Assembly (NCBI RefSeq): GCF_003403315.2
Contig: NZ_CP048407.1
Location: 2,108,001 to 2,172,000, forward strand
Length of the DNA stretch: 64,000 nucleotides
From: Thermaerobacter sp. PB12/4term
Lineage (GTDB): Bacteria > Bacillota > Sulfobacillia > Thermaerobacterales > Thermaerobacteraceae
Reading direction: 5' to 3'
The position numbers and the translations under genes are program-made. Below are positions 15,401-21,279 of this stretch, piece by piece. The notes under the pieces are model-generated. The model was not told the DNA's origin, ran no database searches, and was given only the letters and a program-made list of their open reading frames with translations. Positions within the stretch are counted from its first letter, which is position 1. Each line of letters starts with the position of its first letter.

Positions 15401-15560
15401 CTGAAACATCGTCATCTGTTTCAGGCAGTCGATCCTCACGGATCGACGGTGCCGGTCTTACCCGGCAATGAGCGGGAGCCGGCTTCCCGCTTCCTCCGGG
15501 ATCGCCTGCCTTGCTGCAGGTCTTCCATCCCGTCCACGGGCGTTTCACGTCTCCGGGCCA
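15400..15560 (-). ncRNA. Candidate omega (guide) RNA region of TnpB
   Basis: In characterised IS200/IS605 elements the TnpB guide RNA overlaps the 3' end of tnpB and runs to the right end. Here the matching 160 bases hold two clear hairpins, with arms GTCGATCC/GGATCGAC (15428-15447) and CCTGAAAC/GTTTCAGG (15400-15425). Any guide would extend into the flanking sequence below 15400. The RNA is inferred from position and structure only. Confidence 0.4.
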
Positions 15561-16726
15561 CTCCCGGCGACGGCGGCCACCAGGGCCGCGAGATTCCGGG
15601 CCGCGTTTTCGTCCCGGTCGAGCACGAACTCGCACTCCTCACAGCGGAAAACGCGTTGCGAAAGCGGTAGCGACGACTTGACCGCACCGCACCGCGAGCA
15701 ACGCTTGCTGCTGGGATCGAACAGCGGCGCTTCGACCAATACCGCCCCGTGCCAGGCGCACTTGTACCGAAGCTGGCGGCGGATCTCCGCCAGGGCCGCA
15801 TCGGCCAGCGCCCGGGCCAGCCGGCGGTTCTTCAGCATGCCTGCCACGTGCAGCTGCTCAACCACCACCACGCCATAGGTGGCCGCCAGGTGGTGCGTCA
15901 GTTTGTGAAGGGCGTCCTGGCGGATGTTCCGGACCCGCCCATGGAGCCGGGCCAGCCGGCGGCGGGCCTGCCGCCACCCCCGGCTGCCCTTCTGGCGGCG
16001 GGCCAGGGCGCGGTTCCACCGGGCCAGTTGTTTCAGGTTCTTCTCCCGCGCTCGGGGATTGGGCCAGACCTCACCGGTGGAGAGCACCGCCAGGTGCTTG
16101 ACGCCCGCATCGACGCCGACGACCTTCCAGGGGAACCGGGGTCGGCCCGGCTGCCGCTCCACCTCGCAGGTGAAGCTGACGAACCACCGGCCCCCTTCCC
16201 GGGCGACCGTGGCCGACAGGATGCGGGCCGTTCCCGCTTCGATGCGCCGGAGCAGGGCCGTGGTCGGCTCGTGGGGCTTCACCCGCCCGATCCGGGGCAG
16301 GACGACGTGGCTTTGGTCGTCCACCCGGATCGCGCCGGTGGTGAACCGCACGGACTCACGACCCCGCCCCTTCTTCCGAAAGCGCGGGAACCCCACCCGG
16401 CGTCCCTTGCGTTCACCCTTGCGGCTTTTTGACCAGTTCTGAAGGGCCCGGGCCAGCCCGTCCAGGCCGGAGGAATAGGCCTCTTTCGAGTTTTCCCGCC
16501 ACCAGGGGGCGACGACGTGCTTTTGCCGGTTCCACTCCCGCCGCAGGGCGGGAAGCGTCCACGGCACCTCCACGCCTGCGCCCCGGGCGCGGGCGTCCAG
16601 GCGCTCCTTCACCAGGGCCAGGCCCCAGTTGAAGGCGAAGCGGCGGGCGCCCACGTGGGAGGCCAGCGCCCGTTCCTGGCGGGGTGTGGGGCCGAGGGCG
16701 AAGCGGTACGCCTGCAAAACACGCAT
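15545..16726 (-). CDS. tnpB: RNA-guided endonuclease TnpB (IS605 OrfB family)
   Basis: A 393-residue TnpB. The N-terminal domain begins MRVLQAYRFALGPTPRQE. The RuvC catalytic residues are all present: Asp in VVGVDAGVKHLAVLS, Glu in GVVVVEQLHVAG and Asp in VLDRDENAARNLAAL. A zinc ribbon with CSRCG and CEECE lies between the last two. TnpB cuts DNA under guide of an RNA from the element's right end, which keeps copies at the donor site. The start at 16726 follows GGGGGGCTT and gives the usual family N terminus. The intact catalytic set suggests that the nuclease may still be active. Confidence 0.93.
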   Translation of the reverse strand: MRVLQAYRFALGPTPRQERALASHVGARRFAFNWGLALVKERLDARARGAGVEVPWTLPALRREWNRQKHVVAPWWRENSKEAYSSGLDGLARALQNWSKSRKGERKGRRVGFPRFRKKGRGRESVRFTTGAIRVDDQSHVVLPRIGRVKPHEPTTALLRRIEAGTARILSATVAREGGRWFVSFTCEVERQPGRPRFPWKVVGVDAGVKHLAVLSTGEVWPNPRAREKNLKQLARWNRALARRQKGSRGWRQARRRLARLHGRVRNIRQDALHKLTHHLAATYGVVVVEQLHVAGMLKNRRLARALADAALAEIRRQLRYKCAWHGAVLVEAPLFDPSSKRCSRCGAVKSSLPLSQRVFRCEECEFVLDRDENAARNLAALVAAVAGSGPET

Positions 16727-16925
16727 GGGGAAGCCCCCCAAAATCATCCAAGGACAGCGTATCAGAACATCTGTTCTTAGACAACGAGCCGGCCGAGGAG
16801 GGGTGGGGATGCTAAGATTTGATGACGTTGGGCGAGAAACGATAAGAAACGCACTAGGGTCAAGTCCCCGTCCGGGGCTCTGATCCTCGACAAGGGGTTG
16901 CTAGGGAACAACAAGCTAATAAATG

Positions 16926-17177
16926 CTACGCGGCCGTCGGCGCTTGACGCTGAGGACGAGCCGCGTCGAACCGGGTGGGCTCGTAGGGCTGACGATCCCG
17001 CCACATGGCAAACAGCAAGGGAAGGGCGTGGTGGGCCACGATGCGCAAGGCATCGCGGACATTGACCGGAGCCGTTCTCAACCGACATTGGATGCGGTGG
17101 ACCCTGGGGACCGCCTGGCGGTCCTCTTCCAAGACGGTGATCATACCGGCGGCTAGAAACATGCGGATGCCTTTCAT
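16926..17177 (-). CDS. Hypothetical small protein
   Basis: I do not recognise this 83-residue frame. It starts MKGIRMFLAAGMITVLEE at 17177, with a GAGGAGAAA ribosome-like site somewhat far away, and ends 4 kb inside the accessory island. The body is Arg-rich. An alternative start 27 codons upstream exists. It is downstream of the anchored secreted protein on the same strand. It may be a remnant rather than a gene. Confidence 0.3.
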   Translation of the reverse strand: MKGIRMFLAAGMITVLEEDRQAVPRVHRIQCRLRTAPVNVRDALRIVAHHALPLLFAMWRDRQPYEPTRFDAARPQRQAPTAA

Positions 17178-17193
17178 TGGTGGCGATTTCTCC

Positions 17194-17982
17194 TCATCCC
17201 ACCCGCCGTCGTACCCACCAGAGTGCTCCGACAAAAACTGCCAGCGCACCCGCTCCAAACCCCGCCCACACCGGATTCGCCATAGCAGGCTCCGGTTCTA
17301 AACTACCAGTTACACCAGTAGGCCCACCAACAGCACCCTTATCAGAAGACGACTGTATTCTCTGTCGAACCTCACTCACCAACCGCTCCATATCCACGAC
17401 TTGCGACGAGGGAAGATTATACAAGGTTATGTCACGCATAGACGCAAACCGGCTGTTGCCACGGCTGTCGACACCCACAAGACCAACTATTCTATATCCC
17501 TCATCATAGACCAATCGCATTTGCCCAATCATACCATTGGCTACAAGCATCCGTTGAGCCTCTCGTACGTCATTCGCAAACCGCGAGTCACTTGATACCC
17601 GAATAATCTTCCACTCATCACGGACCCTTTGTACCCATGCGATGCCAACCGGATTTGCATTCACGTAAATTGGGAAAATATGGAGGCTTGGATAGGGCTT
17701 AATGATGTCATCCACGTCCGTTGATCCGTCGATAACACCTTGCTCAGAGACATAGTGGACGCGAAAGCCCTCGCCGAAAGTTACGCTATCAGCATCACCC
17801 AGTTTTGTAAGCCCAAAATGTTGCGGTTCGCTTGCCAAAACAACCCGCACATATGGGATGTCGTCCTTAATGCCCTGGACAACATCAGGCGGTGCGTCAG
17901 CGTAGGACTTATTAACAACTGAACAAACTACCACTGCCACCAACACAGAAACTCGAGCGACAACTGAGGTTGACCGACACAT
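17194..17982 (-). CDS. Secreted, C-terminally membrane-anchored hypothetical protein
   Basis: A 262-residue protein of unknown function in a low-GC block. An N-terminal signal peptide (VSVLVAVVVCSVVNKSYADA) with a likely cleavage after SYA is followed by about 200 residues without recognised domain. Near the C terminus, after a Gly/Pro/Glu-rich stretch, come one membrane segment (VWAGFGAGALAVFVGALWW) and an Arg tail, so the protein should be exported and held in the membrane facing outward. The ATG at 17982 follows AGGAGGTG at the right distance. It begins five bases beyond the stop of the broken peptidase gene and was probably cotranscribed with it. Confidence 0.7.
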   Translation of the reverse strand: MCRSTSVVARVSVLVAVVVCSVVNKSYADAPPDVVQGIKDDIPYVRVVLASEPQHFGLTKLGDADSVTFGEGFRVHYVSEQGVIDGSTDVDDIIKPYPSLHIFPIYVNANPVGIAWVQRVRDEWKIIRVSSDSRFANDVREAQRMLVANGMIGQMRLVYDEGYRIVGLVGVDSRGNSRFASMRDITLYNLPSSQVVDMERLVSEVRQRIQSSSDKGAVGGPTGVTGSLEPEPAMANPVWAGFGAGALAVFVGALWWVRRRVG

Positions 17983-17986
17983 ATTT

Positions 17987-18561
17987 TCACCTCCTGGCAT
18001 TGTTCATAAAGGTCCATTTCCAGTAAAAGCTTTCATTAGAAACAAAGTCGCTGTATGGCATCCAGTTCCACATGGCCGACGTGGGCCAAGGATCCATATA
18101 TGATACGTTTTTATAAACGCCATCTTCGTAGTATCCATATATTACAAAGTCGTGGCCACTACTCTTGCCCCTCCATTGGATACTCGCCGTGATGGGCTGA
18201 TTTTGGTCAATATCAATCTTAACGTCTGTCCACGGTATACTGCGATCCCATGCGGTCGTACTGATACCAGCGACGTTGAGAGATTTAAATGCGTCGGAGT
18301 AATACGCAGCGACATCGGGACAGGTAGACAGCCCTGTCGTGCCCGCCACGATTGCACACTGAGTTGGGGCGCTCCCTAAGACATACTATGCAATCGCCCT
18401 TGTAGTTGCTGCCCAACACCATTTAGATTTTTTTGTTTTATTCCTGTAATTGCTAAATACCGATACGTAGCAGCCTGAATGTCGCCGTTGATACCAAATA
18501 CTACAGTTAGTACCGTCAACAGGACTAAAACAACAATATTGTGCCGGGCCAAACGTGGCAT
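17987..18561 (-). pseudogene. Secreted papain-like cysteine peptidase, broken by frameshift and stop
   Basis: A start at 18561 behind GGGGGAGG encodes a signal peptide (HNIVVLVLLTVLTVVFGI) in one frame. The -1 frame then carries KSKWCWAATTRAIA, the catalytic-cysteine motif of bacterial papain-like (C39/C70-type) peptidases. The frame change falls at a run of seven A residues (18428-18434). Fourteen codons later an in-frame TAG (18386-18388) interrupts the protein, after which YVLGSAPTQCAIVAGTTG continues in the same frame. This includes a QCAIV stretch often following the cysteine helix and, further on, a histidine region SGHDFVIYGYYEDG. Two lesions close together mark a decayed gene. The whole protein would be about 190 residues. 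Confidence 0.7.
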
Positions 18562-18611
18562 CGCACACTGGCCTCCCCCTCAATCACAATGTGAGCCCTC
18601 GCGTCCAGTTG

Positions 18612-18622
18612 ATCACCGTGAT
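18612..18622. promoter_or_regulatory. Short palindrome upstream of the peptidase pseudogene
   Basis: ATCAC and GTGAT flank one base, a perfect 5-1-5 palindrome about 50 bases before the pseudogene start. It may be an operator remnant; no factor can be named. Confidence 0.25.
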
Positions 18623-18682
18623 GAAATAAAATTACGCACTGTTTCAAGTCCCCCTCCTTCAAGGTCACCAGCCTTTGAGCTA

Positions 18683-18949
18683 TCAAAACAATAGTGTATT
18701 CAGGGTCAGGGCAATTATTCCTTCCATAGGAGCCTGTTTCATGAACTCAAAATCAGGGACGAGACCTCTGGTTGTAGCATAGGGTGACAAGGGAGCCCAC
18801 CACATGTGGCGCATGAACATCGTTAGAGGTGGTTCGTGCGAGAGACCGATAGGCACCAAAATGTTATCCGAATCGTTTCGACATATAACGACATGGCCAA
18901 CGGGTATCTTTGTGGGCCATACGCTTACTATCATGTGGATACCGGCCAT
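18683..18949 (-). CDS. Hypothetical protein
   Basis: An 88-residue frame in the low-GC block, starting MAGIHMIVSVWPTKIPVG directly after the stop codon of the preceding small frame. It has no recognised domain. Two Trp residues and several Met residues give it a real-protein look, but no ribosome site is evident apart from coupling to the gene before. It could be a fragment. Confidence 0.35.
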   Translation of the reverse strand: MAGIHMIVSVWPTKIPVGHVVICRNDSDNILVPIGLSHEPPLTMFMRHMWWAPLSPYATTRGLVPDFEFMKQAPMEGIIALTLNTLLF

Positions 18950-19207
18950 TCAGGTCCCCACGCGATTTAACTTGACTTGAGGAGCCTGTTTGTCTGACTT
19001 TGACGAATCAGAAGTAGGGGTAGGTAGCGGTTCGATTCGCCCATTTCCCGTGGGCTGACGGTGGGGACGGGGTAGGCCGGCGGGCCCGTCGTACCCTTTT
19101 ACGCCAAGTCCACCGCCGTCCATCCAAAGGGCAAGCAGGTGGATCGCTCCCAACAACGAGTTTGGGCCGACAACATCGAGATAGGAGCGTTGGATGACCT
19201 CAATCAT
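18950..19207 (-). CDS. Hypothetical protein at the intron fragment boundary
   Basis: An 85-residue frame starting MIEVIQRSYLDVVGPNSLLG at 19207 with CAGGAGGCGG eight bases upstream. It begins where the recognisable group II intron sequence ends, in the place where an intron-encoded reverse transcriptase would normally start, but it has no similarity to such proteins. The second half is Pro/Gly/Ser-rich. It may be a chance frame using the intron ORF's ribosome site. Confidence 0.35.
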   Translation of the reverse strand: MIEVIQRSYLDVVGPNSLLGAIHLLALWMDGGGLGVKGYDGPAGLPRPHRQPTGNGRIEPLPTPTSDSSKSDKQAPQVKLNRVGT

Positions 19208-19209
19208 GC

Positions 19210-19680
19210 ACACACCGCCTCCTGGGCGAGGCCCTCTCGGGTTGGCTGCTCTCCTCGCACCCGGAGCGAACGCGCCAACACCCTCCCGGACTCGACGTTC
19301 GGCCCTTCCCGCCGGCCCGGCCGGCGGTACTATGGCCTCTGCTGACTCCTGCCGGCTCAGCCGCGCCTTGCGGTCGCGGGTTGCCAGCTCCGCTGGCCCG
19401 CCGGCAGGCCTCCCCGGGTAAGAGCGCGCACTTTCGTCGCACACCCGCCGCGTTTACAGCGCCGCCCTTCGGCCCATCTCGGGCTTCGCCGTGTCTTGCC
19501 GGCTCGTCCAGACGGCGCCGCCTCGCCCGCGGTTCCTGGTCGTCGGGTCGCGACTTTGCCTCCGGCTTCCTTCGGATCCCGCGTCGCCGCGGGCACCCTT
19601 GCCTTCGGCTAGCGGTTGTACGGGGCCACCCTCCGCAGGGGACTTTCACCCCTTAGCACTCGCCCATGCCGGGCGCACAC
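19210..19680 (-). mobile_element. Truncated group IIC intron (5' part)
   Basis: The minus strand from 19680 begins GTGTGCGCCCGGCATGGGCG, the 5' end of bacterial class C group II introns. It continues with many of the conserved domain I-III blocks known from the Oceanobacillus iheyensis intron: GGGGTGAAAGTCCCC, CTAGCC...CGAAGGCAAGGGTG, CCGGAGGCAAA, CTTACCCGGGGAGGCCTG, GAGTCAGCAGAGGCCATAG and GGAAGGGCCGAACG. The reverse transcriptase gene and domains V and VI are missing, so the copy cannot splice or move. It sits just after a terminator hairpin, the usual target of class C introns. The 3' boundary is approximate. Confidence 0.88.
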
Positions 19681-19689
19681 CACATGCCG

Positions 19690-19715
19690 AAGGGCCGGGT
19701 TCCTCCCCGGCCCTT
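19690..19715 (-). terminator. Terminator hairpin, insertion target of the group IIC intron
   Basis: AAGGGCCGGG and CCCGGCCCTT form a perfect 10-base stem with a 6-base loop, ten bases upstream of the intron 5' end. It lies downstream of isocitrate lyase on the same strand and probably ended that transcript. Any U-tract has been displaced by the intron. Confidence 0.75.
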
Positions 19716-19890
19716 CCCACGTCCGCTGCGCTGCGGCACACCCCTCTTCGCCGATCCTGGTATACCTCGGTTGGGTTGGATTCATGCGGTCCCGTCCTGC
19801 CGGCTTTCTCCGCGGTGCATCGGAGACTCCCCATCCGTCGGGCCCGGGCCGGCTGTTCGCAGCCGACCGGCGTTGCCGACCGGCGCTGCT

Positions 19891-21279
<1,389 letters not shown>

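Follow-up and report, generated by a model that had tools for sequence, protein, structure and literature searches.

On the minus strand of the window (the whole 64-kb stretch of DNA analyzed here), positions 19678 to 19213 correspond to the 5'-terminal 466 nt of a group II intron of class C (group IIC), lying behind the isocitrate lyase gene aceA and in the same sense as it. We favor, with a probability of roughly 0.93, an account in which a IIC intron inserted behind aceA and then lost its 3' part by deletion, leaving a relic. An earlier note had read this locus as the 5' fragment of a group IIC intron, and the identification is borne out by Rfam matches, by the class C consensus at the 5' end and by full copies in a congener, G001.

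The intron fragment and its insertion site

The features that define the locus are the following:
19891–21279, minus strand: isocitrate lyase gene aceA, located upstream of the intron insertion (NF011645, 802 bits; TIGR01346, 618 bits)
19689–19716, minus strand: perfect 11-bp stem with a 6-nt loop following aceA, the target of the insertion (sequence and predicted fold)
19213–19678, minus strand: 466-nt 5' part of a group IIC (class C) intron (Rfam, alignment to five full G001 copies, 5' consensus)
19423–19593, minus strand: full-length match to RF02001, group-II-D1D4-3 (116.1 bits, E 4.2e-23)
19302–19383, minus strand: full-length match to RF01998, group-II-D1D4-1 (60.2 bits, E 2.6e-8)

The covariance search for group II domains proposed in the earlier note, performed as an Rfam scan of the whole 64-kb window, matched RF02001 and RF01998, which are models of group II introns in general, both over their full length; no other Rfam match at E ≤ 1 was found between 17000 and 20000. 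The fragment contains the 5' boundary and, going by these models, what we take to be domains I–III and the beginning of domain IV. When applied to the full copies in G001, the same two models score 121.5–130.2 and 56.9–65.1 bits, close to the values for the fragment, indicating that the domain landmarks are nearly unchanged, as had been claimed. The 5' end, GTGCGCCCGGCATGG at 19678–19664 on the minus strand, matches the class C boundary consensus GUNYGCCNRGCAUGG (as given in the accessible text of PMC4028801), which occurs once in the 64-kb window against 0.04 occurrences expected. This consensus sets the 5' end of the intron, and the break at 19213/19212 is set by the end of similarity to the five full G001 copies. 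The span originally assigned to the fragment, 19210–19715, includes most of the terminator-like stem; the intron proper runs from 19678 to 19213.

The arms of the stem (19716–19706 and 19699–19689) are followed by the 10 nt GGCATGTGGT (19688–19679) and then by GTGCG, the start of the intron, so that the claim of a start ten bases past a perfect stem is correct. An intron 10 nt behind an 11-bp terminator-like stem is in keeping with the class C target rule, which the earlier note had also invoked; insertion of class C introns behind terminators is established, according to the parts consulted of PMC4424553, PMC4028801 and PMC8919778. The stem has no T-run (a promoter/terminator scan found no terminator-like site in 19150–19900), and an inverted-repeat search of 19180–19960 returned no pairs at a minimum length of 12, which is above the 11 bp of the stem. 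By position and shape, the stem is a putative terminator of aceA.

Three congeners, G001, G002 and G003, carry aceA and the stem with no intron behind them. Both stem arms are identical in all three, and the loop is different in G001 and G003. The exact target is kept only in G002, where the sequence runs unfilled through the insertion point (TGTGGT/TGACG, the slash marking the point). The matches in G001 and G003 end at query positions 57 and 53, 5 and 9 bases short of the insertion point after position 62, and these two genomes show absence of the intron rather than an exact empty site. The base that follows the insertion point in G002 is a T, as is the first base of the 3' exon in the five full G001 copies. 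In the window's genome the downstream flank differs and the insertion has lost its 3' flank, so that the far boundary, the old 3' junction, is not comparable base by base.

Full copies in a congener and the missing 3' part

G001 contains five full copies of 1885–1886 nt that are 94–98% identical to the fragment, differing from it at 11, 11, 18, 26 and 27 positions over the 466 aligned nt. All five have a predicted stem-loop just ahead of them and the class C 3' consensus at their end. One of the copies, L032, encodes a reverse transcriptase (RT)/maturase (TIGR04416, 435 bits; RVT_1, GIIM) and contains domains V–VI (RF00029, 41.1 bits with the cut-off at 40). When aligned to the 433-aa L032 protein, three of the five RT genes contain one TGA, which the alignment of the copies places near the C-terminus. 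A sixth, divergent place in G001 (L037) matches only RF02001, and three further short matches were seen in this genome, one of them to the flank only.

When positions 19200–19740 were searched against 41 genomes, with at most 15 candidates scored per genome, 19 genomes matched; G002 and G003 matched only the 5' flank, leaving 17, own genome included, with matches inside the intron part. Among these genomes, G028 (L007, L022) has at least 15 places with 74–76% identity to the fragment (15 of 113 candidates scored); seven of the 15 share one score, as a recent burst of copying might produce. A short loop ~180 nt into the intron (window ~19491–19498) varies among L032–L036 and the fragment, with CACAAC, CAGCAC, CAAGGC and CAAGAC types; as a guess from the alignment, this loop could be EBS1, as if the target pairing were changing. 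Exact searches returned no match for an 85-nt pattern in genome_contigs and none for a 32-nt pattern in viral_contigs; both are weak negatives, as they count exact matches only and records near the window's genome may have been left out.

The fragment ends after 466 of 1885–1886 nt, and the 3' 1419–1420 nt are absent. The absence of the RT and of domains V–VI, claimed from the window, was also seen in searches of the whole genome, which consists of one contig at 99.99% completeness. An RT protein search found nothing in the window's genome, G002 or G003 and, as a positive control, five places in G001 corresponding to all five full copies. A 38-nt domain V pattern, present without mismatch in each of the five full copies, had no occurrence with up to 3 mismatches in the window's genome, G002 or G003. 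A DNA search of the window's genome with L032:1050–2560 recovered nothing beyond the final 84 nt of the fragment itself (40 of 170 candidates scored). RF00029 was likewise without a match there, a weak negative since the lineage itself scores at the cut-off; at gathering score the model matched none of six loci, missing the domain V of the full copies. Closer to the fragment, the class C 3' boundary CCUACYCGAU is absent from the 64-kb window and no Rfam match to domains V–VI was found in 17000–20000. Domain V at the 3' side, which would have spoken against a fragment, was looked for and not found. We considered a complete intron with an unrecognized 3' half nearby, and rejected it, as there was no Rfam match, 3' boundary, domain V or 3' DNA. 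The proposed genome-wide search for full-length copies and the 3' half accordingly came up empty in the window's genome, where no further copy or piece was seen besides the fragment (40 of 164 and 40 of 170 first-look candidates scored), and succeeded in G001 with the five full copies.

The break, the low-GC block and the probable loss of the 3' part

Three segments separate the intron from the low-GC stretch beyond it, with matches in G001 and G003 to repeated flanks or to the ends of mobile elements:
19195–19216, minus strand: 22 nt identical to a G001 stretch that lies ~200 nt ahead of a transposase gene of the IS110 family (one match only)
19151–19194, minus strand: 44 nt, 98% identical to G001 (L054:2105–2148), at the edge of a ~90-nt repeat
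18982–19151, minus strand: ~170-nt remnant similar to the 3' end of a transposase gene of the IS1182 family and to the flank beyond it (family assigned through the L055 transposase)

The 22-nt stretch overlaps the intron by 4 nt (GGTG) and is possibly an insertion sequence end located at the break, although the IS110 link is one 22-nt match and the end of the element is unmapped. The ~90-nt repeat occurs in several places in the genus, and the IS1182-like remnant in several places in G001 and G003, with a counterpart at the same locus in G002. Because the break adjoins scraps resembling IS110 and IS1182 ends, deletion among insertion sequences suggests itself as the simplest reading. Other mobile DNA is found in the surroundings: an IS607-type TnpB gene (NF038280, 507 bits) lies at 15545–16747 on the minus strand, followed by a Transposase-2 RNA (RF03015, 67.4 bits) at 15424–15493 on the same strand, perhaps a guide-RNA partner of the TnpB, although this is a guess. 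In G001, the IS110-family gene near the 22-nt match (L053, G001:C1:386000–389500) adjoins a CRISPR-like array with ~25-nt repeats at ~66-nt spacing, the repeat of which recurs many times at C1:2553721–2563614 of the window's genome, among the matches listed.

The sequence of events would begin with retrotransposition of a mobile group II intron of class C, whose lineage is still complete in the sister species, into a site 10 nt behind the stem-loop after aceA, in the sense direction. A later deletion would have removed the 3' 1419–1420 nt (domain IV from the break onward, including the RT gene, and domains V and VI) as well as the 3' flank next to them. The neighboring insertion sequences may have caused this deletion, as the scraps at the break suggest, and the remaining fragment would be able neither to splice nor to move. 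Aborted reverse transcription, which starts from the 3' end, would not leave an intron that keeps its 5' junction and lacks its 3' part.

The earlier note had attributed the loss to the low-GC block, and the surroundings offer some grounds for such a reading: the GC content is 44–53% over 17250–18999, a stretch that lies within a few hundred bases of the break, next to sequence of ~70% GC. On this view the intron was there first, and a low-GC island arriving later, through insertion or through exchange of the region with a relative, took the place of its 3' half. The comparison with the congeners argues against this. Behind aceA, G002 has counterparts of 17179–18479 (97% identity) and 18577–19151 (81%), and thus most of the block; G001 has a counterpart of 17179–17993 (93%), and pieces of the block are found in three separate places in G003. 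Since all three congeners with parts of the block are without the intron there, the block appears to be older than the intron and most simply predates it. Part of it may have been exchanged between lineages later, as 17179–18479 is 97% identical to G002 against 92% for the aceA stretch of the same two genomes. This 97% stretch stops ~730 bases short of the break, and the segment closest to the break, at 81%, is not a recent import from G002; mobile-element scraps also separate the block from the intron. The claimed replacement is therefore not supported, and we regard it as improbable. Within the block, a 120-aa frame at 17987–18349 on the minus strand matches PF13529, a C39-like peptidase domain, over the C-terminal part of that domain (E 2e-7); the 268-aa frame adjoining it has no Pfam match up to E 0.1, and its DNA is at least partly kept in the three congeners.

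Deletion of the 3' part of a once complete intron remains the preferred reading. The fragment differs from L032 and L033 at 11 of 466 sites (2.4%), compared with 35 of 252 fourfold sites (13.9%) in aceA between the window's genome and G001. With one gene compared, this difference suggests that the intron probably spread after the species split, its lineage reaching one or both species after that event; RNA constraint could account for part of the gap.

Another idea is that the aceA transcript has retained the fragment as a working 3' tail, for instance for RNA stability. Only 4 sites deviate from a base common to all five copies, and the fragment lies in sense behind aceA. The few changes are nevertheless explained by youth, the fragment is found at the aceA site in one of the four genomes of the genus, and a strong stem stands ahead of it. 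We consider retention for such a function very unlikely, and give equally little credence to the notion that the retained domain I–III RNA still acts, for instance by giving read-through transcripts of aceA a stable folded tail. Least credible of all is a split intron acting in trans, of which the fragment would be one half while the other would lie elsewhere, since, despite the 5' boundary and both domain I–IV models being nearly intact, no domain V pattern, RT or 3' DNA was found in the genome, searches in which a distant domain V would be missed.

Relation to known introns

The 5' boundary consensus, the domain I–IV models and the location behind a terminator-like stem are all shared with class C introns, and the full relatives in G001 resemble that class further in their RT/maturase and domains V–VI. 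Unlike class C introns, the fragment lacks the RT and domains V–VI and ends after 466 nt. In this it is not exceptional, as the majority of bacterial copies are truncated, going by the portions consulted of PMC4424553 and PMC4028801, and many truncated copies sit among other mobile DNA, as stated in the accessible part of PMC4424553. We see no difference of substance from the known truncated copies; here it is the 5' part that has been retained. A literature search for Thermaerobacter and group II introns gave nothing on this fragment in titles and the opening parts of abstracts, and Thermaerobacter is not mentioned in the main text of PMC8919778.

The fragment is ordinary mobile-element debris of a known class, and its value extends little beyond annotation. 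It serves as a reminder that a truncation is not necessarily caused by a low-GC block next to it, and it documents a terminator-targeting intron lineage that is present as full copies in one species and only as a relic in a congener.
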